Positions 44,984-60,233 of a DNA stretch of 64,000 nt are shown in pieces. Each line of letters starts with the position of its first letter. Positions within the stretch are counted from its first letter, which is position 1. The position numbers and the translations under genes were made by a program. The notes beneath the pieces are model-generated. The model did no database searches and had not been told where the DNA came from. It was given only the letters and a program-made list of their open reading frames with translations. The DNA is from Leucobacter sp. cx-328. Its GTDB lineage: Bacteria; Actinomycetota; Actinomycetes; Actinomycetales; Microbacteriaceae. The stretch covers positions 62,001-126,000 of the forward strand of contig NZ_JACVMX010000002.1 in assembly GCF_014530035.1 (NCBI RefSeq), read 5' to 3'.

Positions 44984-45757
44984 CTATACGTTCTGTGCGT
45001 CGCGCGCCTGGTCGATGCGCTGCTGCGCCTCGGGGCTGCGCACGAGCGGCGGCACGATCTCGTTCTGCTCGTTCACGATGACGACGTCGTGGTCAACGTG
45101 TTCGACCATCGCGTGCACTGCGTCGATGAAGTCTCGGCGGCGGATCGCGTCCAAGACGCGAGCGTGGTCCTGCTCCATTTCGGCGCCCGTTGCGACGTTC
45201 GCGAGGCGACCGCGGTGCTCGGGGGTGCGGAGCTGATCGTTGATGCCAGCGTAGAGCGAGGACAGCAGGCGGTTCTTCGCAGCGTCAAAGATGAGCTGGT
45301 GGAACTTGCTGCTGAACGCGGTCGTATCAGAGCCGTCGATCATGCCAAGGACGGGGCAGCGGGTGCAGCCCATCTCTTCCTTTGCGGCCTCTTCGAGCGC
45401 GGCGATGTCTTCCTCGGTGCGCTGCAGGGCAGCCTGTTGCGCGGCCTCGATTTCGAGCGCGCGACGGTAGCTCAGAATTTCTTCGAGCGTGAAGTCATTG
45501 AGGAACTCGTTGAGCAGCGAGCTCGTCGGGGTGGCCGAACGCACGAAGGTGCCGCGGCCGGGTGCGGTTTCGAGCATGCCGACGCTCGCCAGTGAGCGCA
45601 CAGCCTCTCGCACGGTTGAACGGCCGACGCCCATCTGTTCAGCGAGCTCGGGCTCGATGGGAATTCGGCTGCCGACGGGCCAAGTTCCGGTGGTGATTTG
45701 GCGTCGAAGGTACGCAAGTGCGCCGCGCGCACGATCTGATCCCATAGTGGAAGCCAT
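44984..45757 (-). CDS. FadR/GntR-family transcriptional regulator
   Basis: A 257-residue repressor-type regulator. The winged helix (about residues 8-78) shows SRIPIEPELAEQMGVGRSTVREAVRSLASVGMLETAPGRGTFV signatures in parts, and the FCD ligand domain (about residues 95-235) carries metal-binding histidines (FHQLIFDA, HARVLDAI). It would bind an organic acid. ATG 45757 follows AAGGAGG. It is divergent from the PEBP-type gene with about 155 bases between, so either neighbour could be its target. Confidence 0.9.
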   Translation of the reverse strand: MASTMGSDRARGALAYLRRQITTGTWPVGSRIPIEPELAEQMGVGRSTVREAVRSLASVGMLETAPGRGTFVRSATPTSSLLNEFLNDFTLEEILSYRRALEIEAAQQAALQRTEEDIAALEEAAKEEMGCTRCPVLGMIDGSDTTAFSSKFHQLIFDAAKNRLLSSLYAGINDQLRTPEHRGRLANVATGAEMEQDHARVLDAIRRRDFIDAVHAMVEHVDHDVVIVNEQNEIVPPLVRSPEAQQRIDQARDAQNV

Positions 45758-45912
45758 TGCTTCGCCTCCTTGTACTCACGACTGCTCGTGATTGACGCTG
45801 GTGTGACTGGCTTCGTGTGGGTTCGCTCTCGCGAGGAAGCACAGTATGAGTCAGTATAGTTGTGACCCCTTCCGGCGAGGTGGCCGGAGTCGGACGGAAT
45901 TCGGAGAGTCAG

Positions 45913-46467
45913 ATGTCCCAGGTTGCTAGTCGCGGTCCCGCGAACCCATATGCGCTCATGCGTCAGGTGCCAGAGTTCACCCTCACGAGCGCGACAATCC
46001 AAGCGGGCGAGCCGATGCCCGCTGAGTTGTATGCAGAATATGCCGGCGGATCAAACCAATCCCCACAGCTCTCCTGGACAGATGTTCCAGAGGGTACGAA
46101 GAGCTTCGCGATTACGTCGTACGACCCAGACGCTCCCACCGGTTCAGGCTTCTGGCACTGGGCGGTGGCGAACATTCCCGCTGACGTGCGTGAGTTGCGT
46201 GCCAATGCTGGGGCGATCGGGGGCGCGGATCTCCCAGACGGCGCCTACATGATCCGCAACGAGAAGGGGGAGCCCGCCTTCACGGGCGCTGCGCCGCCCG
46301 AGCACACCGGCGTGCACCACTACTGGTTCGTTGTCCACGCACTCAACGTTGCTCACATCGATGTGCCGGCAGATGTTACTCCGGCAGTTCAGGGCTTCAT
46401 GATGCGAGACGCTGTCATCGGTCGTGCGATTCTCGTGGCGACCGGCGAGTACGGCCAGGCTGTGTAA
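45913..46467 (+). CDS. YbhB/YbcL-type PEBP protein
   Basis: A 184-residue protein of the phosphatidylethanolamine-binding (Raf-kinase-inhibitor-like) family. The anion-binding pocket is seen as YDPDAPTGSGFWHWAVANIP (central residues) and GVHHYWFVVHALN. No signal peptide is present. The in-frame extension upstream of ATG 45913 is weakly supported. Bacterial members have no agreed biochemical role. It is followed by an aminotransferase gene 111 bases downstream. Confidence 0.9.
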   Translation: MSQVASRGPANPYALMRQVPEFTLTSATIQAGEPMPAELYAEYAGGSNQSPQLSWTDVPEGTKSFAITSYDPDAPTGSGFWHWAVANIPADVRELRANAGAIGGADLPDGAYMIRNEKGEPAFTGAAPPEHTGVHHYWFVVHALNVAHIDVPADVTPAVQGFMMRDAVIGRAILVATGEYGQAV

Positions 46468-46578: not shown

Positions 46579-47649
46579 ATGTCACTGCCCTCACGCCCCG
46601 GCCTCGAACACGTTGCTGCATACCGTCCCGGTAAGCCTGCACCCGTTGGCCATGATGGTCTGAGTGCAAAGCTGTCGTCGAATGAGAACCCGTATGATCC
46701 GCTGCCTTCGGTGGCGGCCCGCGTGCAGGCGTGTTTGCCAGCCGCGATCAACCGGTACCCCGATCACGGTGCCGTGGTGATCGGCGAAGCAGTTGCTGCT
46801 CGGTTTGGCGTGAAGTACGAAAACGTCGTGTTTGGCTCGGGCTCGGTCGAGGTCGCCGGTCAGCTCATTCACGCGGTAACAGGCCCCGGCGACGAGGTCA
46901 TGTTTGCGTGGCGTTCGTTCGAGGCCTACCCGATTCTCGTGCGCTCGGCGGGCGCCGTGCCTGTTGAGGTGCCCCTTGACGCCGGCGCACGTCACGATCT
47001 CGATGCGATGGCCGATGCCATTACCGACCGCACTCGTCTGATCTTCGTCTGCAACCCGAACAACCCGACTGGCACGGTGGTCGATCGCGCAGACTTCGAG
47101 CGCTTCCTCGCCCGCGTGCCTGAGAACGTCGTCGTGGTCATCGATGAGGCGTACACGCATTTCGACCGCGGCGCTGAGTCACCCCGCGGCATCGACTACT
47201 TCGGCAAGTTCCCGAACGTCGTTGTGCTCCACACCTTCTCGAAGGCCTACGGCCTTGCCGGCCTGCGCATCGGCTACGCGATTGCCCCCGTTGAGCTCGC
47301 AGATGACCTGCGCAAGGTCTCGATTCCATTCGCGGTCTCGGCGCTCGCTCAGGAGGGCGCGCTCGCGTCGTTCGAAGCTGAGGGTGAGCTGCAGGAGCGC
47401 GTCGACCAGCTCGTTGCAGAGCGCGAACGCCTGGAAGCAAAGCTCGCAGAGCTCGGTGTCCACTTCGTGCCTTCGCAGGCGAACTTCGTGTGGTTGCCGG
47501 CTGGTGAGCGCAGCGACGAGCTCGCGACGCAGTTTGCAGAGCGCGGCATTTCGGTTCGTTACTTCCCGGGCTCCGGCATGCGCATCTCAATCGGCCTCCC
47601 CCTCGAGAATGACGCAGTGCTCGAGGTTGCTGCGAAGTTCGCAGCCTAA
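46579..47649 (+). CDS. Aromatic amino acid / histidinol-phosphate aminotransferase
   Basis: PLP-dependent class II aminotransferase, 356 residues, of the HisC/Pat group. KLSSNENPYDPLPSV is the N-terminal arm; CNPNNPTGT, DEAYTHF and the Schiff-base lysine in HTFSKAYGLAGLRIGY are intact, and the phosphate-binding arginine lies in YFPGSGMRISIG. The gene is not in a histidine operon, and a TrpXYZ-type importer follows, so an aromatic transaminase (pat) role is more likely than HisC. That choice is inference. Confidence 0.85.
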   Translation: MSLPSRPGLEHVAAYRPGKPAPVGHDGLSAKLSSNENPYDPLPSVAARVQACLPAAINRYPDHGAVVIGEAVAARFGVKYENVVFGSGSVEVAGQLIHAVTGPGDEVMFAWRSFEAYPILVRSAGAVPVEVPLDAGARHDLDAMADAITDRTRLIFVCNPNNPTGTVVDRADFERFLARVPENVVVVIDEAYTHFDRGAESPRGIDYFGKFPNVVVLHTFSKAYGLAGLRIGYAIAPVELADDLRKVSIPFAVSALAQEGALASFEAEGELQERVDQLVAERERLEAKLAELGVHFVPSQANFVWLPAGERSDELATQFAERGISVRYFPGSGMRISIGLPLENDAVLEVAAKFAA

Positions 47650-49208: not shown

Positions 49209-50210
49209 ATGATCGGTGCGCTCGAACTCGGCCTGCTCTACGGAGTGATGGCACTCGGGGTCTACCTGACCTTCCGTGTGCTGAATTTCCCTGACCTCAC
49301 CGTTGACGGTAGCTTCACGACCGGTGGCGCAACCGCCGCATCGATGATCGTGCTTGGTTTCAATCCTGCCCTTGCGACCGCGGCTGGCTTTGGCGTTGGT
49401 CTCATCGCAGGTGCCATCACCGGCCTGCTGCATACCAAGGGCAAGATCGATGGGCTGCTCGCCGGTATCCTCACGATGATCGGCCTGTGGTCAATCAACT
49501 TGCGGATCATGGGTAGCACCAAGGAAGGCGTCGCTGGCACATCAAACGTGCCCCTGCTTCGCGCAGACACCGTCTTTACTCCGATCGATAACGCAGGCAT
49601 CAGCAAGAGCTGGTGGAGCGTCCTCATCATCTTCGCCGGTGTCTTCATCGTGAAGCTCATCGTTGACTGGTTCCTGTCGACGAACCTTGGCCTCGCTATC
49701 CAGGCGACTGGCGACAACGGCCCCATGATCTCGAGCTTCGGCGTCAGCACCGACGGCACCAAGATCCTTACGCTTTCGCTTTCGAACGGCCTCGTCGGCC
49801 TCTGTGGTGCGCTTGTCGCTCAGTACCAGGGCTTTGCCGACATCAGCATGGGCGTCGGTCTCATCCTTATCGGTCTCGCGTCGGTCATCCTCGGCCAGGC
49901 GATCTTCGGTCAGCGCTTCATCTGGGTTGCAACCTTTGCGGTTATCTTCGGTGCGGTGCTCTACCGCATGATCATCTTCTTGGCGCTCAAGGCTGGCCTT
50001 GACCCCAACGACATGAAGCTCGTTACGGCGCTGCTTGTGATCGCCGCGCTGCTGCTGCCGCGCTGGGGCTTCCTCAAGAAGGTGCCCTCGCTCTGGAGCC
50101 GCGGCGGCAAGGTCTCGAGAGCAGAAGACCGTGACACCGCGCTCTTCGATGACTCGACTCCGTCGACCACCGAGAACATCAAAATCGACGCTGCGAACGC
50201 GAAGGGCTAA
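49209..50210 (+). CDS. trpY: ABC transporter permease, TrpY-like
   Basis: Single-chain membrane permease of 333 residues with about eight to nine helices. It begins directly with LGLLYGVMALGVYLTFRVLNFPDLTVDGSF, the signature of the branched-chain/BMP-like permease group used by TrpXYZ systems. The GLKNGLVGLCGALVAQYQGFADISMG-like loop contacts the ATPase. A charged C-terminal tail of about 40 residues extends into the cytosol. ATPase coding begins 6 bases after its stop. Confidence 0.88.
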   Translation: MIGALELGLLYGVMALGVYLTFRVLNFPDLTVDGSFTTGGATAASMIVLGFNPALATAAGFGVGLIAGAITGLLHTKGKIDGLLAGILTMIGLWSINLRIMGSTKEGVAGTSNVPLLRADTVFTPIDNAGISKSWWSVLIIFAGVFIVKLIVDWFLSTNLGLAIQATGDNGPMISSFGVSTDGTKILTLSLSNGLVGLCGALVAQYQGFADISMGVGLILIGLASVILGQAIFGQRFIWVATFAVIFGAVLYRMIIFLALKAGLDPNDMKLVTALLVIAALLLPRWGFLKKVPSLWSRGGKVSRAEDRDTALFDDSTPSTTENIKIDAANAKG

Positions 50211-50215
50211 TCGAC

Positions 50216-51007
50216 ATGCTGCAGATTGAACGCATCTCCAAGACCTTCTTCCCCGGCACTGTCAACGAGCGTCGCGCGCTCAACGAGATCAGCCTGACCC
50301 TCGAACAGGGTGACTTCGTCACCATCATCGGTTCGAACGGCGCCGGTAAGTCGACGCTGCTGAACGCGATCTCGGGTCGCTACTCGGTTGACTCGGGCAC
50401 GATTGACATCGCAGGCAACCGCGTGAACAAGCTCAAGGAACACCAGCGCGCAAAGTACGTCGGTCGCGTGTTCCAGGACCCCATGGCGGGTACCGCGCCC
50501 GATCTCACGATCGAGCAGAACCTTGCACTTGCGGTGCGCCGCGGCAAGAGCCGTGGCCTCGGCCCTGCGCTGACGCGCGGCCAGCGTGACCGCTTCCGTG
50601 AAGACCTCAAGTCGCTTGAGCTCGGCCTTGAGAACCGCCTCACCGCAAAGGTTGGCCTGCTTTCAGGCGGCCAGCGCCAGGCGCTCTCGCTGCTCATGTC
50701 GGGCTTCACGAACCCCGACATCCTGCTGCTCGATGAGCACACCGCTGCGCTCGACCCGCAGCGTGCGGCGCTCGTGACTGACCTCACCGCTCGCATTGTC
50801 GGCCAGGGCGGTCTCACCACTCTCATGGTCACGCACAACATGGAGCAGGCGCTTGCCCTCGGTAACCGCCTCATCATGATGCACGAGGGTCGCATTGTGT
50901 TCTCGGCTGATCCCGAGCGCAAGAAGACGCTTACCGTTGCTGGCTTGCTCGAGGAGTTCTCGAAGATCAAGGGCGCACAGCTCGACGATCGCGCACTGCT
51001 CTCGTAA
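50216..51007 (+). CDS. trpZ: ABC transporter ATP-binding protein, TrpZ-like
   Basis: A 263-residue ATPase with Walker A GSNGAGKST, Q-loop VFQDPMAGTA, signature LSGGQRQALS, Walker B ILLLDEHTAALDP (His in place of the usual Pro after DE, a common variant in this subgroup) and switch VTHNMEQAL. It completes trpX-trpY-trpZ. A strong terminator follows the stop. Confidence 0.9.
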   Translation: MLQIERISKTFFPGTVNERRALNEISLTLEQGDFVTIIGSNGAGKSTLLNAISGRYSVDSGTIDIAGNRVNKLKEHQRAKYVGRVFQDPMAGTAPDLTIEQNLALAVRRGKSRGLGPALTRGQRDRFREDLKSLELGLENRLTAKVGLLSGGQRQALSLLMSGFTNPDILLLDEHTAALDPQRAALVTDLTARIVGQGGLTTLMVTHNMEQALALGNRLIMMHEGRIVFSADPERKKTLTVAGLLEEFSKIKGAQLDDRALLS

Positions 51008-51059: not shown

Positions 51060-51908
51060 CTATTTCCCGCGTTCGTCTGCGCTGCCGGGTGCGATCGTGT
51101 CTCGTGCGTGCACGCGTCCGAGCGCGGCCTGCAGCTGAGATTCGAGCACCGGTACCCGAGGGTCGAGCACGAACCGGTCATCGCGTGGAATGTCTCGGGA
51201 GACAGGGACTTCCGCCACGATCCGCGCCCCACCGTGCCCACCGCGCCCGCCTGCCTCACCGACCTCGCCAGCCCGACCAAGCACGAGTGCACGGTCGGAA
51301 AGGCGCACGGCCTCGCGAATATCGTGGGTAATGAGCAAGATGCTCCAGCCATGCTGTTCCCAGATTGCAAGGAGCCACCGCTGCAGGTCGTCGCGAGTGA
51401 TCGCGTCGAGCGCCCCAAACGGCTCATCGAGCAGCAGTACGGGCTTTTCTTGCACGACCGTGCGCAGGAACGACACGCGCTGACGCATGCCGCCTGAAAG
51501 CTGTCGGGGAAACTGCGCCTCGCTTCCCGTGAGGCCGAAGGGAGCGAAGAGCTCGGCTGCGCGGGACCGGGCTTCCCGCTTGGGCACTCCAGCAACCTCG
51601 AGTCCGATGCTCGCGTTCTCCACCATGTCGCGCCATGGCAGCAGTACGTCGCGCTGCGGCATTGCGGCAAAGGGTCGGTGCGCTCCCATCGCCGCCGGGT
51701 AAATCACGGCGCCGCCGTAGCGGATCTCTCCCGCACTCGCGCGCACCGCTCCGGTCAGGAGGGATAGCAGCGTTGACTTGCCGCTTCCGCTTGCGCCAAC
51801 CAGCGCCACGATCTCGCCTGGCGCAACCTGCAAGTGTAGATCGTCGAGCACGCGATGGCTGCCGAATCCGGCCGAGATGCCATCAAGCTCAAGTAATTGC
51901 GCGCTCAT
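51060..51908 (-). CDS. Thiamine-precursor ABC transporter ATPase (ThiZ-like)
   Basis: A 282-residue SsuB/TauB-type ATPase. Walker A GASGSGKST, Q-loop MPQRD, signature LSGGMRQRV, Walker B LLLDEPFGALD and switch LITHDIREA are visible. ATG 51908 follows GGGGAAGG and overlaps the permease stop by 4 bases; the open frame continues upstream to 52196 but that part lies antisense to nothing conserved and inside the permease. The C-terminal part has a Gly-rich RAGEVGEAGGRGGHGG insertion. Its operon is preceded by a TPP riboswitch, so it energises uptake of a thiamine precursor. Confidence 0.9.
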   Translation of the reverse strand: MSAQLLELDGISAGFGSHRVLDDLHLQVAPGEIVALVGASGSGKSTLLSLLTGAVRASAGEIRYGGAVIYPAAMGAHRPFAAMPQRDVLLPWRDMVENASIGLEVAGVPKREARSRAAELFAPFGLTGSEAQFPRQLSGGMRQRVSFLRTVVQEKPVLLLDEPFGALDAITRDDLQRWLLAIWEQHGWSILLITHDIREAVRLSDRALVLGRAGEVGEAGGRGGHGGARIVAEVPVSRDIPRDDRFVLDPRVPVLESQLQAALGRVHARDTIAPGSADERGK

Positions 51909-52690
51909 GCGACCTTCCCCCGTTCGATTCTCAGCCATGGCACGGTGATGCGTTCGATGAGCATCACGACCCCATAGAGGGTGAGCGTCAGTACCGAACT
52001 CATCGTGACCGCTGCGAGCACCAGGTCTGTACGAAACACATGTTTCGCTGACTGCATGTACACGCCGAGTCCGGCGACCGCGCCCGCATACTCGGCGAAG
52101 ATTGTTCCGACTACGGCGTAGGTGATCGAGATACGGAGCGCTGAGAAGAAGGACGGAATACTCGCCGGGAGGCGGAGCAGGCGAAACACCTGCCATCTTC
52201 CAGCCCCCATCGAACGCAGTAGCGCCTCGGCTTCAGGGTCGGCCTCGGTGAAGCCTCGAAGCAGTCCGACGACCATGGGGAAGAACGTGACAAAGGCGAC
52301 GAGGAGCACCTTCGGGAGTAGGCCAAACCCAAACCAGAGCACCACAAGCGGTGCAAGCGCGATCAGCGGCAGGGTTTGGCTCACGACAAGAATGGGCAAG
52401 ATTGCCCGTCGCAACAGCTGCGAAAAATCGAGGAGTGCCGCCGCGAGAAAGGCGACGGCCACCGAAAGTCCGAATCCGACGACGGTGGCGGTCAGCGTTG
52501 GCACCAGGTGCCGCAGAAGCGCGTCACGCTCAGCGAATCCCGCCTCGGCAATCCTTGTCGGAGATGGCAACAGTTCTGGCGGCACCAGCCCTGCCTGCGT
52601 GGCTCCTTGCCACACGCCAAATAGCACGCAGCACGCGAGCGCGGGCGGCAGCACGACGGCTGCTACCCGCGCGCTACGCGGCTGAGTCAC
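51905..52690 (-). CDS. Thiamine-precursor ABC transporter permease (ThiX-like)
   Basis: Membrane subunit of 261 residues with six helices and the EAA-type loop (EAEALLRSMGAGRWQVFRLLRLPASIP). It belongs to the SsuC/TauC-like permease group. Its start overlaps the stop of the substrate-binding gene by 4 bases and its stop overlaps the ATPase, giving a tightly coupled ThiY-ThiX-ThiZ order on the minus strand. Confidence 0.9.
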   Translation of the reverse strand: MTQPRSARVAAVVLPPALACCVLFGVWQGATQAGLVPPELLPSPTRIAEAGFAERDALLRHLVPTLTATVVGFGLSVAVAFLAAALLDFSQLLRRAILPILVVSQTLPLIALAPLVVLWFGFGLLPKVLLVAFVTFFPMVVGLLRGFTEADPEAEALLRSMGAGRWQVFRLLRLPASIPSFFSALRISITYAVVGTIFAEYAGAVAGLGVYMQSAKHVFRTDLVLAAVTMSSVLTLTLYGVVMLIERITVPWLRIERGKVA

Positions 52691-53742
52691 TTGAGCAGTT
52701 CGTCGGTGTAGTAGGTGCTCCAGTCAGGTTCAACGGTCACCGGCTTTCCCGAAGCATCAGCCAAGAAGCCGCCATCGAAGAGGAACTTGCCAAAGTCGTT
52801 CCACGCGTCAGGGTTTGCCGCACCGATTGCGTGGCCCTCCTGCACGAGGTAGCCGTCTTCGGCCATGAGCTTGGCGCTGCGTTGCACGAGCTCGCGAGCC
52901 GTGCCCAAAGTGTCAGGGTTCGCGTCGATGAGCATCTCGGCTGCCTGTTCAGGGTGGTCAGCGGCGAACTGGTAGCCCTTCGCCACGGCGCCAACGAATG
53001 CGCGGGCTGCATCGGGATGCTCAGCAAGATACGCATCACTCGAAATGATGCCGGTTGACTGCTGCACGGGTACGCCAAAGTCTTGGTAGCGCCATGCCTG
53101 GTATGGGTGGCCGTCAATTTCGTTCTGCAGGTTCTCCCACGTCGCGACCGAGAGCGTGAAGTCGATGCGTCCCTGCGACAAGGCTTCATACGCGCCGGTA
53201 TCGAGCACGACCTCTTCGAATGTGCCGGTGCCGCCGTCACCCTGAATCGTTGACTTCGCGAGTGCTGGGAAGAGGGGCGCGCCAAATCCACCGAAGACCA
53301 TTCCGTCGAGATCCTTCGGCCGGGTGATGTCTGCACGGTCGTTCAGGGCCACCAGGCGTCCGGTATCGGTCTGGGTCACGCGGTAGACCGAAAGGACGTC
53401 GAGGCCTGAGGTGCGGGCCATCTGTACCCCAGACTGCCCGCCAATGCCGAAGTCTGCTTCGCCAGCTGAGACCAGCTGCGTGGCAGAGGTTGAGCCGTAT
53501 GGCAGGATCTCGACGTCGAGGCCGGCATCGGCGAAGTATCCTTCTGCCTCGGCAACGTAGACGCCAATGTGGTTGGTGTTTGGCGCCCAATCCAGTGCGA
53601 ATGTGACGGCCTCTGTCGACCCGTCTGAGGTAGTGGCAGAGTCGGCGTCGCTCGTGCTGCACCCGGAGAGTGCCAGGGTTGCGACGGCGATTGCAGCCGT
53701 AGCCGCGATGCTGCGACCGGTCTTGAATGTGTGGTGACGCAT
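52687..53742 (-). CDS. Thiamine-precursor substrate-binding lipoprotein (ThiY-like, NMT1/THI5 fold)
   Basis: A 351-residue receptor with lipobox LALSGCSTS (Cys-28). The mature N-lobe FALDWAPNTNHIGVYVAEAEGYFADAG is the NMT1/THI5-like signature found in ThiY, the receptor for formylaminopyrimidine or HMP. The TPP riboswitch directly upstream supports a pyrimidine-precursor substrate. Start ATG 53742 follows AAAGGGC. It heads the three-gene uptake operon. Confidence 0.9.
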   Translation of the reverse strand: MRHHTFKTGRSIAATAAIAVATLALSGCSTSDADSATTSDGSTEAVTFALDWAPNTNHIGVYVAEAEGYFADAGLDVEILPYGSTSATQLVSAGEADFGIGGQSGVQMARTSGLDVLSVYRVTQTDTGRLVALNDRADITRPKDLDGMVFGGFGAPLFPALAKSTIQGDGGTGTFEEVVLDTGAYEALSQGRIDFTLSVATWENLQNEIDGHPYQAWRYQDFGVPVQQSTGIISSDAYLAEHPDAARAFVGAVAKGYQFAADHPEQAAEMLIDANPDTLGTARELVQRSAKLMAEDGYLVQEGHAIGAANPDAWNDFGKFLFDGGFLADASGKPVTVEPDWSTYYTDELLK

Positions 53743-53789
53743 GTGCGTGCCCTTTCAGTGTTCACTGGGCACGGGTATGTAGAAGAGTG

Positions 53790-53875
53790 TCTCCCTGCGC
53801 TGGCATGATCCAGATCAGGTTCGACGGTCGAAGGTTGATGACCTTCCTCTCAGCCCGGCCTACCGGACTCCCGTG
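53790..53875 (-). promoter_or_regulatory. TPP (thiamine pyrophosphate) riboswitch
   Basis: Read on the minus strand, CGGGAG...GGGCTGAGAGG (pyrimidine-sensing arm) is followed by GAACCTGATCTGGATCATGCCAGCGCAGGGAGA (given here in two halves by arm), the highly conserved THI-box core. It ends 48 bases before the ThiY-like ATG and should shut down translation or transcription when TPP is abundant. Confidence 0.95.
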
Positions 53876-53966
53876 TGTGCTCACCGTAACAGAACTCGCA
53901 TGCGCCATGCGCTTGGCCACTGTGGAAAGGCAGGTCAGGCCGGAGGTGCGTCATTCCGAATCCCCT

Positions 53967-54620
53967 ATGGTTGATCGTGTGATCGCACCAGTATCAACTT
54001 CGACACCAGCACCAGCACCAGCACTTGCACCGGAGCAGTACGGCGTCGGTGCCCGTTTCACGCTTTCGGTCTACGACTCCGACTACGTACGGATCATCTT
54101 GGGTGCCCTCGCCGAGGCGAACCGCGACGGGCTCACCATTGAGACCAATGACATCTCAACGTTCATCGGCGGCGCCGAGCAGCGAGTGCTCGAATTCTTG
54201 CACGAGGTCATTGCACAGGCCGCGGCTACCGGTGTGCACCTGTCGGCGACGATTCTGCTTTCGCGTGGCTGCCCTGGGGAACTCACGTGCGCGCTGCCAG
54301 CTGGCGTCACGGCGCTGGGGGCTGCGCCGGTGGCACTTGTACCCACTGGGGTGCGAGCTCGCGCGCACTGGTCGCTGTACCCGTTGCTTGACGGTGACTC
54401 GACGGGTGATCATATGACGCCAATTTATGAGGCAATTGAGTCGGCGAAGCAGGCCGGAGTGTATTCGGGCTCAGACCACTTCGCGACGCGACTCGACGGC
54501 GACCTTGCTGATGTGCTCGCAACCGCTGCTAACGGCTGGATCGGTGTTGGCGCCGTCGTGCAGCACGTCACCACGCATCTCACGGTCTCGCTCAACAGCC
54601 CGACCACGATTACCGACTGA
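53967..54620 (+). CDS. YkoF-type thiamine/HMP-binding protein
   Basis: Cytoplasmic protein of 217 residues. After an Ala/Pro low-complexity head (STPAPAPALAPEQYG) come two related ferredoxin-like halves: ARFTLSVYDSDYVRIILGALAEAN and ARAHWSLYPLLDGDST...IYEAIESAKQAG. This duplicated layout and the divergent TPP-controlled transporter match YkoF, which binds thiamine and its pyrimidine. ATG 53967 has a poor ribosome-binding site, and the GTG at 53979 is an alternative. It is 13 bases upstream of a flavin monooxygenase gene. Confidence 0.8.
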   Translation: MVDRVIAPVSTSTPAPAPALAPEQYGVGARFTLSVYDSDYVRIILGALAEANRDGLTIETNDISTFIGGAEQRVLEFLHEVIAQAAATGVHLSATILLSRGCPGELTCALPAGVTALGAAPVALVPTGVRARAHWSLYPLLDGDSTGDHMTPIYEAIESAKQAGVYSGSDHFATRLDGDLADVLATAANGWIGVGAVVQHVTTHLTVSLNSPTTITD

Positions 54621-54633
54621 GCCGGGGAGCGCG

Positions 54634-55944
54634 ATGACGCAGATGCACCTCGTGGCGATGGTGAACCCGCCAACGAGTCAGTACGCAGAGAACTGGCGCC
54701 ACCCGCTCTCGCGCACTGACTGGCTGAGCGGCAAGTTCTTTACTGACCTCGCGCGCATCCTGGAGCGCGGGTGCTTCGACATGATGTTCTTTGCGGATGC
54801 GCTCGCGGTGCCTGAGGATCGACACGGTGACTTTGCCACCACGCTGCGCACGGCGGGGAAGGGGAGCATCTACTTCGATCCGGTGACGCTCATCTCGCAC
54901 GTCGCCGCGGTAACGACCCATTTGGGACTCGGGGCGACCGTGTCAACGAGTTTTGTGCCGCCGTATGCGATCGCACGCCAGCTGCTGTCGGTCGATCATC
55001 TCTCTGGCGGTCGCGTCGCTTGGAATATCGTCACCTCGACGACCAACGCTGAGGCGCGCAATATGGGGCACGCGGCGATCGCATCGCCCACCGACCGCTA
55101 CGATCATGCTGACTCGGTCGTTGAGACGGTACGGGCGCTGTGGCAGTCGTGGGAACCCGATGCGATGGTGCTCGATCAGGCAAATGGTGAATTTGTGGAT
55201 GCGGATCGTGTGCACCGCATCCCCGCGGGACTTGGCTCACGCGGCCCGCTCACGCTCCCGAGCAGCTCACAGCGTGAGCCTGTGCTCATGCAGGCGGGGT
55301 CGTCGCCGCGTGGCCGTGACTTCGCTGCACGCTGGGCAGAGGTCGTGTTCGCGATTGGCGACTCTGCCGAGCAGATGCGCGAACTGCGCACCGAACTCCG
55401 AGAACGCGCGCAGCGTGATTACGGACGTGACCCAGATTCCATCAGGGTGCTGCAGGGCGTGCAACCCATCGTGGGGTCCACTGATGCTGCGGCGGCAGCG
55501 AAGCTCGCGGAGCTTCGCGCGGCCATCGATCTCCCCGCAGCGGTGACGAAACTTGAGCGACTGTTACACGCAGACTCGCTCGACCTGGCGGCATCGGCCG
55601 TCGACGTGCTCGATGCGCACCGCGGCGCGACCGGAAGCACCGGGTTCGAGGACATGCTGCGTGCGGTGAGTGAGCGGCGCTCGTTCACGGTTGCCGATCT
55701 CGCGCTTGAGCAGGCAATGAACCAGCTGCATCCGCAGTTGGTCGGGTCACCGGCGTCGATTGCTGACGAGCTGGAGCACCTCTTCCGCACCGAGGCGGCC
55801 GATGGGTTCATTATCTTCCCTGCGCTCTACCACGCATCGTTCGAAGACTTCGTGAACGGTGTCGTGCCTGAACTGCAGCGACGCGGAGTATTCAGGCAGT
55901 CGTACGCGCACTCGACGCTGCGCGGGACACTCGGTATGAACTGA
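54634..55944 (+). CDS. NtaA/DmoA-type FMN-dependent monooxygenase
   Basis: Luciferase-fold flavin monooxygenase of 436 residues, the long NtaA/SnaA/DszA subgroup. WRHPLSRTDWL opens the core; RGCFDMMFFADAL, GLGATVSTSFVPPYAIAR and SGGRVAWNIVTSTT are characteristic, as are LMQAGSSPRGRDFAARWAEVVF and the C-terminal lid. It needs a separate flavin reductase. GGGGAG precedes ATG 54634. It follows YkoF by 13 bases, which links it to thiamine or its breakdown products; the actual substrate is unknown. Confidence 0.85.
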   Translation: MTQMHLVAMVNPPTSQYAENWRHPLSRTDWLSGKFFTDLARILERGCFDMMFFADALAVPEDRHGDFATTLRTAGKGSIYFDPVTLISHVAAVTTHLGLGATVSTSFVPPYAIARQLLSVDHLSGGRVAWNIVTSTTNAEARNMGHAAIASPTDRYDHADSVVETVRALWQSWEPDAMVLDQANGEFVDADRVHRIPAGLGSRGPLTLPSSSQREPVLMQAGSSPRGRDFAARWAEVVFAIGDSAEQMRELRTELRERAQRDYGRDPDSIRVLQGVQPIVGSTDAAAAAKLAELRAAIDLPAAVTKLERLLHADSLDLAASAVDVLDAHRGATGSTGFEDMLRAVSERRSFTVADLALEQAMNQLHPQLVGSPASIADELEHLFRTEAADGFIIFPALYHASFEDFVNGVVPELQRRGVFRQSYAHSTLRGTLGMN

Positions 55945-56018: not shown

Positions 56019-59000
56019 ATGGCAGAGCAGGTGTTCCCTAGGGCGGCAAGCGTACCCGCGATTGTTGATCGCGCGGCACGATGGCGGGAGGCCGGGAAGG
56101 TGGGCGGATCCGCCGAAACTCCAGACGCGAACCTGCTTGCCGGCATCGCAGGCGACCCGTCACAGCGAGAATTCGTCAACCGCCTCGTCGAGGTGCTGTT
56201 CGGCACCGAAGACGCGTTTGCGGCCGCAAACGGCTTGCGCGATGCGTCACAGAACATCCCTGATTCGATGCCGATGAAGGATCGCTTGCTGCTGCGCGCG
56301 AGTGGCACGGTGTCGTTCGGCCTACCGTGGCTCGTGAAGCCGCTTGCGCGACGCCATCTACTTGGCCGTGCGTCTGAGCTGATCGCGACCGTGCGCGTCA
56401 CAGCGCCAACCAAGACCAACCCTGCCAAGTTCACCGGGGTCACCGAACTCTTGCGCGGGATCACTGACGACGGTCTTGAGCCGGTCGTCACCTTGCTCGG
56501 CGATACGATCCACGGCAACGCTGGTACAGCGACCGAGGCTCAGCGACTCTTGGCGCTCATCGAGCATGCTGCCGTGCGTCAGGTGGCGATTGATCCGGGC
56601 CGCCTCGTCGCTCGCTCGCGCGGGGGAGAGTGGGCGATTGATGCCGACGCTGCGCTCGCCATCGCGGCGCTTGAACCGCTCGCGGAGGCTGCCGTCGACC
56701 ACGATGTCACGCTCACGCTTGAACCAACCGATCTTGCCTGGGTGCGCGTGCTGCCCACGATCGTCCGCGGCGTGCTCGGCAACGAAGACGCCAAGCGCCT
56801 CCGCTTCGGCGTGCGCCTGCCGAGCGACCTGCCTGAATCGCGGGAGCTGTATGCAGAGCTGCACTGCTTCGCGCAGTCGCACGTTGCCAAGGGTGGCGTA
56901 CCACTTGAGGTGGTCATTGGTCAGTCGCAGGTGGCGGCGCGTGAGCGGATCCGCTCGATTCTCACCGGCCTTGCCGTTCCCGTGATCGAAGATCAGGTCG
57001 AGGCTGACGCCCAGTTCCTGCGGCTCATTGAGCTGGTGTTGCACCCGGGTCGTGCGGCCGTGATCCGCCCCGTCATCGCGACCGAAGACGCGCGCATCGC
57101 TGCGGCAGCCGTCGAGGTCGCCGAGGTGCTGGAGTCGACGGCGCTGTACAGCTTCCGGCTGCGGAGCGGCGTTGAGTCGCACCTCGCACAGGAGCTCCGT
57201 GCGCACGCCGATGTGCAGCTCCTGCTGCCGCTGCTTCCCCGTGGCGAGCACGCGGGCGCGATCGACGTGCTCGTGGGGTACATTGCAGAGTTTGCGGCCG
57301 CGGATCTCGCAACAGACCCCGACGCAGCATTCCTGGAATCTGCTGACCTTGCGCAGCTGCCAGCCCCTGCCTCACACCGCACGCAGCACCGTGCGCGCGA
57401 GTGGGACCCGAGTGAGCGCGATAGTGCCCTGTTCTACAAGGCGCCAGACGAGACCACGCGCTTTGACACTGGCGGCCTGACGGCAGCCGTGCTTGGCCTG
57501 AACCACCAGGAGACGGGCGAGATCACGCTTGAGGAGTTTGCTCCCACGCGCACGATTCCCGCGGTCTCTGCATCCGGCTTCGCGAACGAGCCGCTCACCG
57601 ATGCCTGCGTCGCGGCAAACCGCACGTGGGTGCGTGAACTGCTGGTGCGATCTGCGTCTGTGACCGCTGGCACCGAGGCAGCCGACGCGACGATCGCGCT
57701 CTCGGCTGCAGACCTCGATCCCGCAGCTGCAGCAGCCGCGGCGCGCGAATCAGCCGCGCAGTGGGCGAGCCAGTCACACTCGATCCGCGCCGTGCGCCTA
57801 CGCCGTGCCGGACTCGCAACCGCGGCAGCCCGCGACCGCATCTTCACCGAGCTCGCAGCTGCGACGGGCGCCCCCGCCCGCGTGCTCGACGCGCAGGTGA
57901 ACCTCATCATCGACGCCGCCCGCTACGCCGCCCAGCAGGCCGAGGCGCTCCAGACTATGCGCGGCGCGACGTTCGTGCCCGACCGCCTCGTACTCGTCTT
58001 CGGCGACGAACAGGCCTCGCTCGGCGTGCAGTCGGGGGCGGTGCTTGCGGCGCTCGCCGCGGGCAGCGGCGTGCTGTGGGCCGTGCCCGCTGCACTCGTG
58101 TTCCCCGCCCAGGCGTGCGTTGAGGAGTGGGAGGCTGGCGGTCTGACGCCCGGTGCGATCCGCGTCGTTGGTTTGAGCGTCGAAGAGACCCTGGCGGCGC
58201 TCGGTGCGAGCCCCATGGTTGATCGTGCGGTCGTGTTCGGTCGCCGTTCGCTCGGTCGTGAGCTTGCGCGCCACCGCCCCGACTTGCGCGTTGAGGGGCA
58301 CTTCGTGTCAGGCTCGTCGATGCTCATTACGCCGACCGCCGAGATTGATCGCGCGGTGACCGACCTGGTGGATTCGGCGTTCCGCGCCGATGGCAGCTCG
58401 CTCGCGTCAATGAATCGCGCAATTCTGCTCGGCAGCGTCGGTCGTTCGAAGTCCTTCCGCGAATCGCTCGCAGATGCCGTGCGGTCGTTGCGCGTTGGCG
58501 ATGTTGCGCGGCCGACGGCGGGTGCGGATCCGCTCGCCTACGATGTCGGACCGCTCACGGTTGCACCCTCCGAAGCGGGCCTGCGCGCGCTCACTGAGCT
58601 TGGTCGCGGTGAGGAGTGGCTCGTTGAGCCGCGCCTCCTCAGCGAGGACGGTCGCCTGTGGAGCCCCGGCGTGCGCATCGGTGTCTCGCCGAAATCGCAG
58701 TTCTGGGTCGACGCGGTTGGCATGCCCGTGCTGGGTATCTCGACGAGTTCCATGCTGAGCGAGGCGATCTCGCAGCAGAATGCCCTCGGCACCGGTGCCA
58801 CAGCTGGCCTGCAGTCCTGGGATGCGCGCGAGATCGAGACCTGGCTGGAAGAAGTGAGCGCGGCATCGCTCATGCTGAACCGGCCGCTCGGCTCGCACGT
58901 GATCGAACGGCAGCCGCGTGGCGGCTGGGATGACTCGGTCATGGGGCTCCCCGTGCTCAGTGGCGGCCCGCACTGGCTCGTAGGCCAGGGGTCGTGGACC

Positions 59001-59660
59001 CGTCGCCGCGGCACCCGCAGCGACACCCTGCACCTGCGCGGCCTCGACCCCGAGATCGGCCGCCTTATCGAGCTGTTGCAGGCCGACATCACCTACGAGT
59101 CGTTTGATGAGCTGCGCCGCGCCGCCCTCGATGACCAGCTCACCTGGCGCACCGACTTCGGTGTTGTGCAGGACGAGATCGGGCTCGGCATTGAGCGCAA
59201 CGTGCGCCGCGCGTGGCCGGTGGCTGTCCAGGTGCGTCTTGCGCAGGGCGGATCGGTCGTCGGCCTCACCCGCGTGCTCGCTGCCGCATTCCTCGCTCGA
59301 TCGCCCATTGAGGTGTCGACCGGGGAAGTGCTGCCGGGCGAGCTTCTCGCCTTCCTCGATGCCCAGGGCATCGATGTTTCCCGTGAAACTGATGACGATT
59401 GGCTTGCGCGCATCGCAGTGAGCGGGCCGACGGCTGGTGAGGGCATTGCGGCGGATCGCGTCCGCCTCATCGGCGGCGATCGTGTGCGCGTCGCAGAGTG
59501 GATGGGCGGGCTTGACCGTGCGGCGCTCTGGGCAGAGTCCGTGACGATGGCGGGTCCGGTCGAGCTGCTCGTGTTCTTACGCGAGCAGGCGATCTCGGCC
59601 CGTGCTGAGCGTCACGGACTCGCCCACGAGGTGCCTGGCCTCGACGAGCTACTGAGTTAG
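56019..59660 (+). CDS. PutA-like protein with degenerate active sites
   Basis: A 1213-residue chain that aligns in layout with bifunctional proline dehydrogenase/P5C dehydrogenase. The first half is a PRODH-like barrel ending at about residue 440, and the second an aldehyde-dehydrogenase-like fold (residues about 500-1000) recognised by NRPLGSHVIERQPRGGWDDS, the counterpart of NRxxTGAxVxRQPFGGW. However, the expected ALDH motif GQ(K/R)CSA reads DGSSLAS, so the catalytic cysteine is absent, and the expected E(L/T)GGKN reads VEGHFVSGSS. In the PRODH half the ERR-type carboxylate-binding arginines (YLxRRLxEN) read VLVGYIAEF. The frame is intact with normal codon use. A functional PutA must be elsewhere. 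Confidence 0.8.
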   Translation: MAEQVFPRAASVPAIVDRAARWREAGKVGGSAETPDANLLAGIAGDPSQREFVNRLVEVLFGTEDAFAAANGLRDASQNIPDSMPMKDRLLLRASGTVSFGLPWLVKPLARRHLLGRASELIATVRVTAPTKTNPAKFTGVTELLRGITDDGLEPVVTLLGDTIHGNAGTATEAQRLLALIEHAAVRQVAIDPGRLVARSRGGEWAIDADAALAIAALEPLAEAAVDHDVTLTLEPTDLAWVRVLPTIVRGVLGNEDAKRLRFGVRLPSDLPESRELYAELHCFAQSHVAKGGVPLEVVIGQSQVAARERIRSILTGLAVPVIEDQVEADAQFLRLIELVLHPGRAAVIRPVIATEDARIAAAAVEVAEVLESTALYSFRLRSGVESHLAQELRAHADVQLLLPLLPRGEHAGAIDVLVGYIAEFAAADLATDPDAAFLESADLAQLPAPASHRTQHRAREWDPSERDSALFYKAPDETTRFDTGGLTAAVLGLNHQETGEITLEEFAPTRTIPAVSASGFANEPLTDACVAANRTWVRELLVRSASVTAGTEAADATIALSAADLDPAAAAAAARESAAQWASQSHSIRAVRLRRAGLATAAARDRIFTELAAATGAPARVLDAQVNLIIDAARYAAQQAEALQTMRGATFVPDRLVLVFGDEQASLGVQSGAVLAALAAGSGVLWAVPAALVFPAQACVEEWEAGGLTPGAIRVVGLSVEETLAALGASPMVDRAVVFGRRSLGRELARHRPDLRVEGHFVSGSSMLITPTAEIDRAVTDLVDSAFRADGSSLASMNRAILLGSVGRSKSFRESLADAVRSLRVGDVARPTAGADPLAYDVGPLTVAPSEAGLRALTELGRGEEWLVEPRLLSEDGRLWSPGVRIGVSPKSQFWVDAVGMPVLGISTSSMLSEAISQQNALGTGATAGLQSWDAREIETWLEEVSAASLMLNRPLGSHVIERQPRGGWDDSVMGLPVLSGGPHWLVGQGSWTRRRGTRSDTLHLRGLDPEIGRLIELLQADITYESFDELRRAALDDQLTWRTDFGVVQDEIGLGIERNVRRAWPVAVQVRLAQGGSVVGLTRVLAAAFLARSPIEVSTGEVLPGELLAFLDAQGIDVSRETDDDWLARIAVSGPTAGEGIAADRVRLIGGDRVRVAEWMGGLDRAALWAESVTMAGPVELLVFLREQAISARAERHGLAHEVPGLDELLS

Positions 59661-60233
59661 GAGCGCTTTCGCGACCTCGATGCCTGCCGGGCCGTCGAGC
59701 GATGGAACGCCATCCCACTTCCCGCCAGCAATGGAGACCTCTACGCCAGGCACCCAGACCGTGGTGCCGATGGTGACAACGAGACCAATGTCGACGGTGT
59801 GCGCGAAGGCGGTGCCACCCTGCTCCGCAACCCAGGGGTCTGCAAGTGCTTCGGTGCCCTTCATGTCGAGAAGCATGCTGAAGTCAGGCTGCTCTGGGGT
59901 TGGGGTGAGTGTGACATCGACGCCGCGAATGTCAGAGAGGTCGGTGCCTGCCTCGCCGCTGCCCCACGAGCAGTAGACGCTTGTTGAGCTGACGTTGCTG
60001 CCCTCGAGAGGTACCAGGCCTTCGATGTACGGGGCGACGGCCTCGGCGACCTGGTCGCACGAGGTGATCTTCTCGATCGAGAAGGTGCCGTCATTGGCGC
60101 CGGTGTCTTGCTGGGCTGATGGGTTCGTATCGGCCGATCCGGCTGCGGTGTCGGAGGGGTCGGCTGCGCTGGAGCATCCGGCGAGCAGAACGGCAGAAGA
60201 GATCAGAGTAAACGTAGTGACAAACTTCTTCAT
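59649..60233 (-). CDS. Lipoprotein of unknown function
   Basis: A 194-residue secreted lipoprotein with lipobox LLAGCSS (Cys-20) and a Ser/Thr/Asp-rich spacer. The C-terminal domain has one SCDQV...VYCSWG cysteine pair and resembles DUF3558-type proteins of actinobacteria, but I cannot be sure. Its last 12 bases overlap the tail of the PutA-like gene on the opposite strand. The hydrophilic spacer suggests surface exposure. Confidence 0.65.
   Translation of the reverse strand: MKKFVTTFTLISSAVLLAGCSSAADPSDTAAGSADTNPSAQQDTGANDGTFSIEKITSCDQVAEAVAPYIEGLVPLEGSNVSSTSVYCSWGSGEAGTDLSDIRGVDVTLTPTPEQPDFSMLLDMKGTEALADPWVAEQGGTAFAHTVDIGLVVTIGTTVWVPGVEVSIAGGKWDGVPSLDGPAGIEVAKALLTQ

Follow-up and report, generated by a model that had tools for sequence, protein, structure and literature searches.

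Why would a genome keep a protein built like PutA, a bifunctional enzyme with proline dehydrogenase (PRODH) and aldehyde dehydrogenase (ALDH) domains, when the residues of both active sites are gone? The question is raised by a gene in a window (the whole stretch of DNA analysed) of 64,000 nucleotides from Leucobacter sp. cx-328, a member of the Microbacteriaceae (assembly GCF_014530035.1, contig NZ_JACVMX010000002.1, positions 62,001 to 126,000). Judged from its alignments, this gene, at 56019..59660 on the plus strand of the window, is an ancient pseudoenzyme of type B PutA fold that has lost both active sites and has been retained.

The open reading frame (ORF) starts with ATG and comprises 1213 codons with zero internal stops. 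Pfam profiles for Aldedh (7.3e-32) and Pro_dh (6.5e-8) matched the protein, and no ribbon-helix-helix domain was among its Pfam matches. The best of 33 matches to solved structures was PutA 5ux5 (E 5.5e-77), presumably from Corynebacterium freiburgense; none of the 33 is labelled ALDH16, in a set not checked for the presence of an ALDH16 chain. Profile-profile alignment with catalytic PutAs extended over 1172 columns (E 1.6e-176), and the homology to type B PutA covers the whole length. Pfam, the 5ux5 match and the profile alignment agree on PRODH, ALDH and C-terminal domains in one chain, as in type B PutA, and bear out the first-pass annotation, made from the letters of the DNA, which had called the product an intact PutA paralogue of 1213 residues. 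All on the plus strand, the N-terminal and PRODH-like barrel region (residues 1-443; 56019..57347) is followed by a long linker with a GGLTAAVLGL element (residues 444-545; 57348..57653), an ALDH-like domain (residues 546-990; 57654..58988) and the C-terminal domain (residues 991-1213; 58989..59657). The NCBIfam cut-offs for PutA equivalogs are not reached (45.9 bits vs 747, and 34 vs 1750). Leucobacter sp. cx-42, the closest named genome and the only locus obtained from a scan for related loci, encodes a protein that is 98% identical; a plasmid search gave three partially matching records, none of which covers 80%.

Residues were compared at 15 positions, spanning both active sites and the sites of the cofactors flavin adenine dinucleotide (FAD) and nicotinamide adenine dinucleotide (NAD), in an alignment of 39 orthologues (33 within the genus and 6 in other genera), three intermediates and 38 catalytic PutAs. 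Left out of the residue counts and of the tree described below were L145 (frame broken over two ORFs on a 6.5 kb contig), the sibling L004 and redundant fragments; L032 was excluded with a best local match of less than 900 residues, and for the genome that encodes L027 the row used was L072. All 15 canonical residues are present in every one of the 38 catalytic PutAs, 6, 13 and 13 of them in the intermediates, and 0, 1 or 2 in the orthologues. In the window protein all 15 positions are changed (D192, E235, V299, E356, L402, G420, Y421, Q665, A688, H761, G765, S766, L795, A899 and G901). On the PRODH side the Lys, the Asp, the Arg-Arg pair and FAD-contacting residues are absent (D192, E235, G420, Y421, V299 and E356 in the window protein). 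On the ALDH side the Cys, the oxyanion Asn, the SGKN motif and the NAD-site Lys and Glu are absent (L795, Q665, VSGS, A688 and A899).

Three motif changes had been recognised in the first-pass annotation, and each holds in the alignments: Gly420-Tyr421 (57276..57281) stands at the position of the proline-binding Arg pair, VSGS (residues 763-766; 58305..58316) takes the place of SGKN where a GGKN motif had been reported as gone, and DGSSLAS (residues 791-797; 58389..58409) carries Leu795 at the position of the catalytic Cys. The losses go further than had been noted, extending to the PRODH Lys and Asp, the FAD-contacting Arg and His, the oxyanion Asn, the NAD-site Lys and Glu and the general-base Glu. 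The register is supported by the profile-profile alignment for the Arg pair and SGKN, up to residue 773, and is that of the MAFFT alignment only for the Cys region. The E. coli PutA numbers and some of the FAD and NAD role labels are those we take to apply, the Arg, Tyr and Leu numbers having been checked by hand against the alignment. Other roles were assigned from SmPutA, for which PMC12398946 gives Arg488, Arg489, Lys265, Tyr473, Leu449, Asn707 and residue 844 (as a Ser mutant). Catalytic PutA has 336 invariant columns; the orthologues share the majority residue in 160 of these, and 64 are close to invariant among the orthologues.

That selection keeps the frame, at first a surmise from its length, is now backed by the ratio of nonsynonymous to synonymous substitution rates (dN/dS), which ranged from 0.039 to 0.138 in eight orthologue pairs, and by a match in all 54 genomes of the genus. 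An enzyme-family fold, as homology predicts, is thus found together with selection and the loss of the catalytic residues, the combination that defines a pseudoenzyme. Pooled over six pairs, regional dN/dS was 0.056 for the linker, 0.062 for the C-terminal domain, 0.097 for PRODH and 0.104 for ALDH, with the inter-domain linker and the C-terminal domain the most constrained of the four. The variability of the ALDH pocket columns (15 of 396) lies at percentile 0.61 within the domain in the pseudoenzymes vs 0.18 in catalytic PutAs, and that of the PRODH pocket columns at 0.46 vs 0.21, and in the pseudoenzymes neither set can be told clearly from random columns. The ALDH site is therefore no longer special, and its pocket appears from the aligned columns to have drifted without conserved replacements. 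We hold it likely that the gene is retained for a role other than that of PutA and, with marginally less confidence, that the best overall explanation is a pseudoenzyme of PutA fold, free of FAD and NAD, that would serve as a scaffold or ligand binder.

The barrel is where a different chemistry might reside. Ten of its positions, conserved in at least 35 of the 39 orthologues, hold residues that are absent or rare in catalytic PutA and nearly all charged (E173, R176, D192, R195, H228, E270, E297, D357, R382 and R400); the window protein deviates at two of them (Asp270 and Gln400), and Arg at 400 is already present in two of the three intermediates. That the barrel has become a different, flavin-free enzyme with its own acid and arginine active site and a structural ALDH half is favoured by the observed conservation of D192 (36 of 39), R195 (38), R382 (36), E297 (35), E356 (Glu in 32, Asp in 6) and D357 (35), where the corresponding residues of catalytic PutA are Lys, Ser or Ala, Leu, Lys, His and Asn. 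R382 occupies the place of SmPutA Leu449, an equivalence drawn by hand from the alignment and published numbering rather than from structure; Leu449 touches the product according to PMC12398946. However, the PRODH region is less constrained than the linker and C-terminal domain, its pocket set is only averagely conserved, and several pocket columns vary freely; residue 192 is Ser in 3 of 39 orthologues, and residue 400 is Gln in the window protein. We regard this explanation as improbable, and it is the one that survives best beside the non-catalytic scaffold or ligand binder.

The distribution of the two proteins bears on whether the pseudoenzyme assists catalytic PutA. In 54 genomes of a genus that we take as Leucobacter, a pseudoenzyme match, read as an orthologue by its identity, was present in every case, and a survey for a co-existing canonical putA found it at E 1e-100 in 45; the window genome itself carries a catalytic PutA (P0002) elsewhere, beside the paralogue (P0001). 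Thirteen candidates were scored per genome (11 in G035), and a separate search scored all candidates of G001, G022, G035, G045 and G052. Catalytic PutA was not detected in nine genomes, all of which keep the pseudoenzyme (G001, G015, G022, G025, G035, G041, G045, G047 and G052). In a Pro_dh family search of these nine the only match was the pseudoenzyme itself, whose barrel scored worse than E 0.001 in G001, G015, G025, G041 and G045. The absence is firmest for G001, G015 and G025, which are single-contig genomes; the assemblies of G035, G041 and G045 are incomplete or in fragments. Catalytic PutA is dispensable in the genus, while the pseudoenzyme is retained throughout the genomes searched. 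As a side observation, one Leucobacter match to catalytic putA contains a single in-frame TAA (L153; G002:C1:910749-914315).

A partner or regulator that acts on catalytic PutA by heteromerisation or competition would fit the identical fold and the occurrence of both proteins in 45 of the 54 genomes, but the nine genomes just named, three of them single-contig and none with another PRODH-family match, make it highly improbable. A regulator or decoy of catalytic PutA was rejected on these grounds. The suggestion of a non-catalytic role in the first-pass annotation consequently stands in part: a paralogue with dead sites under selection is upheld, and the regulator or decoy of PutA is not.

Whole-length homology would also be expected of a working PutA whose catalytic residues have shifted nearby. 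No column of the 39 orthologues holds a conserved Cys, however (at most 8 of 39 in any column, and zero Cys in five of the proteins), which speaks against a relocated catalytic cysteine; with that candidate rejected and the FAD and NAD contacts also lost, this explanation is scarcely credible. A pseudogene in decay, still open by chance, might be supposed from the faster evolution of the pseudoenzyme in a single species pair (90.9% identity vs 99.1% for catalytic PutA; dN/dS 0.073 vs 0.025) and from frames that are discontinuous in 5 of the 54 genus assemblies (G008, G012, G017, G021 and G032), yet it is judged very unlikely from the dN/dS of 0.04-0.14 in eight pairs and the match in all 54 genomes, although we allow it twice the slight weight it would otherwise have because of the five discontinuous frames. 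In G012 and G017 the catalytic putA is split as well, which points to sequence errors there, but not so in G021. The frame in G021 (G021:C1:1900872-1904611) is broken in a single-contig genome with intact catalytic putA, by a sequence error or in a lineage that is losing the gene. A retained pseudoenzyme, neither debris nor an accessory of PutA, is preferred because of the lost residues, the low dN/dS and the presence in 54 of 54 genomes vs 45 of 54 for catalytic PutA.

Beyond the genus the protein is sparse. A linker profile gave at least 82 bits in 20 of the 398 genomes of the family; these belong to 7 of the 85 genera, and three of the 20 are intermediates; the next match, at 58 bits, was in genus g55, whose examined members are catalytic. 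An order-wide draw of 396 genomes yielded 14 matches at E 1e-7, all from the same family and strong only in the window's own genome.

In the phylogenetic tree the pseudoenzymes lie on one side of a fully supported branch. Approximately unbiased (AU) tests used a set enlarged by PutAs of other actinobacteria and stripped of its linker columns; a grouping of all sampled catalytic Microbacteriaceae PutAs was rejected (AU p 1.6e-11), and a grouping of the pseudoenzymes with long-linker catalytic PutAs was not (AU p 0.41), values that serve as guides, the one-clade groups having been named after the first tree was viewed. The deepest placement involves long branches and a quick search, and the deep position is uncertain. 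A GLTxxVLGLxRGS-like linker element is shared by the pseudoenzymes and the long-linker catalytic PutAs, and is absent both from the catalytic PutAs with a short linker in the Leucobacter group and from 7 of 9 outgroups, those with a readable linker. Among catalytic PutAs the element was seen in L039, L040, L047-L049, L053, L057 and L060, in an otherwise variable linker. Five other family genomes encode two PutAs each, and all ten proteins keep the Cys, SGKN and Arg-Arg motifs, with the PRODH Lys motif matched in 8 of the 10. All three intermediates (L055, L141 and L142, from three family genomes) have lost the PRODH Lys, and two of the three keep the ALDH Cys. The trees and the shared linker suggest that the pseudoenzyme derives from the long-linker PutA native to the family. 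The simplest reading suggests one lineage with two PutAs, in which the long-linker copy would have given up catalysis, freed by the short-linker catalytic PutA.

The neighbourhood was compared at 23 fetched orthologue loci with upstream DNA; one batch of 20 loci had been chosen for spread rather than drawn at random, and L144 was omitted, with 10 bases upstream. Genes for a TrpX-type importer lie at most 4 kb upstream on the same strand at 13 of the 23 loci, and in several relatives the ATPase gene immediately precedes that of the pseudoenzyme. In the window and its cx-42 sibling the importer lies 5-8 kb upstream, beyond an inserted thiamine-type block. The window genes on the plus strand encode a YbhB/YbcL (PEBP) protein (45862..46467, start uncertain), a HisC-like aminotransferase (46579..47649), the TrpX-type substrate-binding protein (PF04392; 47982..49001; 276 of 390 bits, below the NCBIfam TrpX cut-off), a BPD_transp_2 permease (49209..50210) and the importer ATPase (50216..51007); a GntR/FCD regulator (44984..45757) is on the minus strand. 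At the remaining loci the PEBP gene is directly upstream in four, the aminotransferase in two, the GntR/FCD regulator alone in one and nothing in two, and at least one neighbourhood gene occurs at 21 of the 23. At 14 of the 23 loci the opposite strand carries a GNAT gene downstream, in one of them 2 kb off. The three intermediates have none of the neighbourhood genes. The flanks of the 38 catalytic PutA loci gave one ATPase hit, probably generic, and form a weak control, being mostly 1.5-3.5 kb long.

Two further features were observed beside the gene. The thiamine-type block (51060-55944), present among the compared loci in the window and cx-42 only, consists of minus-strand ABC genes behind a thiamine pyrophosphate (TPP) riboswitch (53775-53884), together with genes for a YkoF protein and for an NtaA/DmoA-type flavin monooxygenase. 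A gene for a DUF3558-like lipoprotein (59652-60233, a match under the Pfam cut-off) points towards the end of the pseudoenzyme gene, where many relatives carry the GNAT gene.

How the pseudoenzyme may work can be proposed from these data. The protein would serve as a scaffold or bind a ligand, in either case with no need of FAD or NAD, and the inter-domain linker and C-terminal domain would be candidate contact surfaces. A small polar ligand would sit in the PRODH-like barrel among its new conserved acidic residues and arginines; it might be an amino acid transported by the TrpX-type importer, whose genes lie upstream in many species. The authors of PMC5293562 suggest that PutA cannot switch to a membrane-associated state without its C-terminal domain. 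Involvement in amino-acid import, by sensing a ligand or by scaffolding, is possible, though we lean against it. Slightly more doubtful is the fuller proposal that both PutA active sites were abandoned, that the barrel was rebuilt as a flavin-free site sensing or transforming a small polar metabolite (D192, R195, E270, E297, E356/D357, R382 and R400, with Asp270 and Gln400 in the window protein), and that the linker and C-terminal domain relay the output to a membrane partner.

Several observations weigh against the role proposed here, in addition to the five discontinuous frames. The PRODH pocket set, at percentile 0.46, is no better conserved than random columns, 28% of random sets being as low. 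Structure prediction for the window protein and one 98% orthologue gave a mean predicted local distance difference test (pLDDT) score of 30.9 and was not used, and the pocket comes from the alignment alone. The importer binding protein was found in only 31 of 39 genomes searched, and the importer is therefore not required: G022, G034, G035, G052, G202 and G252 have the pseudoenzyme without it, and it is also missing from G076 (an intermediate) and G058 (catalytic PutA only). In G039 and G048 the importer is 23-25 kb away.

A search of open-access titles and abstracts brought up nothing relevant on PutA or PRODH pseudoenzymes, inactive PutA paralogues or the PutA of Leucobacter. All genus genomes searched carry the dead copy while the live one can be done without, and relatives that are half degraded, with 6 or 13 of the 15 residues, survive; the loss of catalysis and what selection favoured instead thereby become directly testable. 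The gene is also an annotation trap, as a PutA-like name would predict proline catabolism in G001, G015 and G025, genomes without a PRODH-family match.

Compared with known systems, the window protein resembles type B PutA 5ux5 in its order of PRODH, linker, ALDH and C-terminal domain, but differs from it in the 15 changed catalytic, FAD and NAD positions and in a linker that is about 60 residues longer by the alignment boundaries. It shares the long linker and the GLTxxVLGLxRGS-like element with long-linker catalytic Microbacteriaceae PutAs (L039, L040, L049 and L053), which in contrast keep 15 of 15 residues. Human ALDH16A1 is an ALDH pseudoenzyme, with the fold but without the catalytic residues, and is reported in PMC10650815 to act via protein partners. 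The trifunctional PutA of the E. coli type is described in PMC5293562 as a moonlighting regulator with a non-catalytic role; unlike the window protein, which has no ribbon-helix-helix domain among its Pfam matches, it retains catalysis. Whereas ALDH16A1 belongs to the ALDH family, the Leucobacter pseudoenzyme is of PutA descent and has lost both sites of a bifunctional enzyme.

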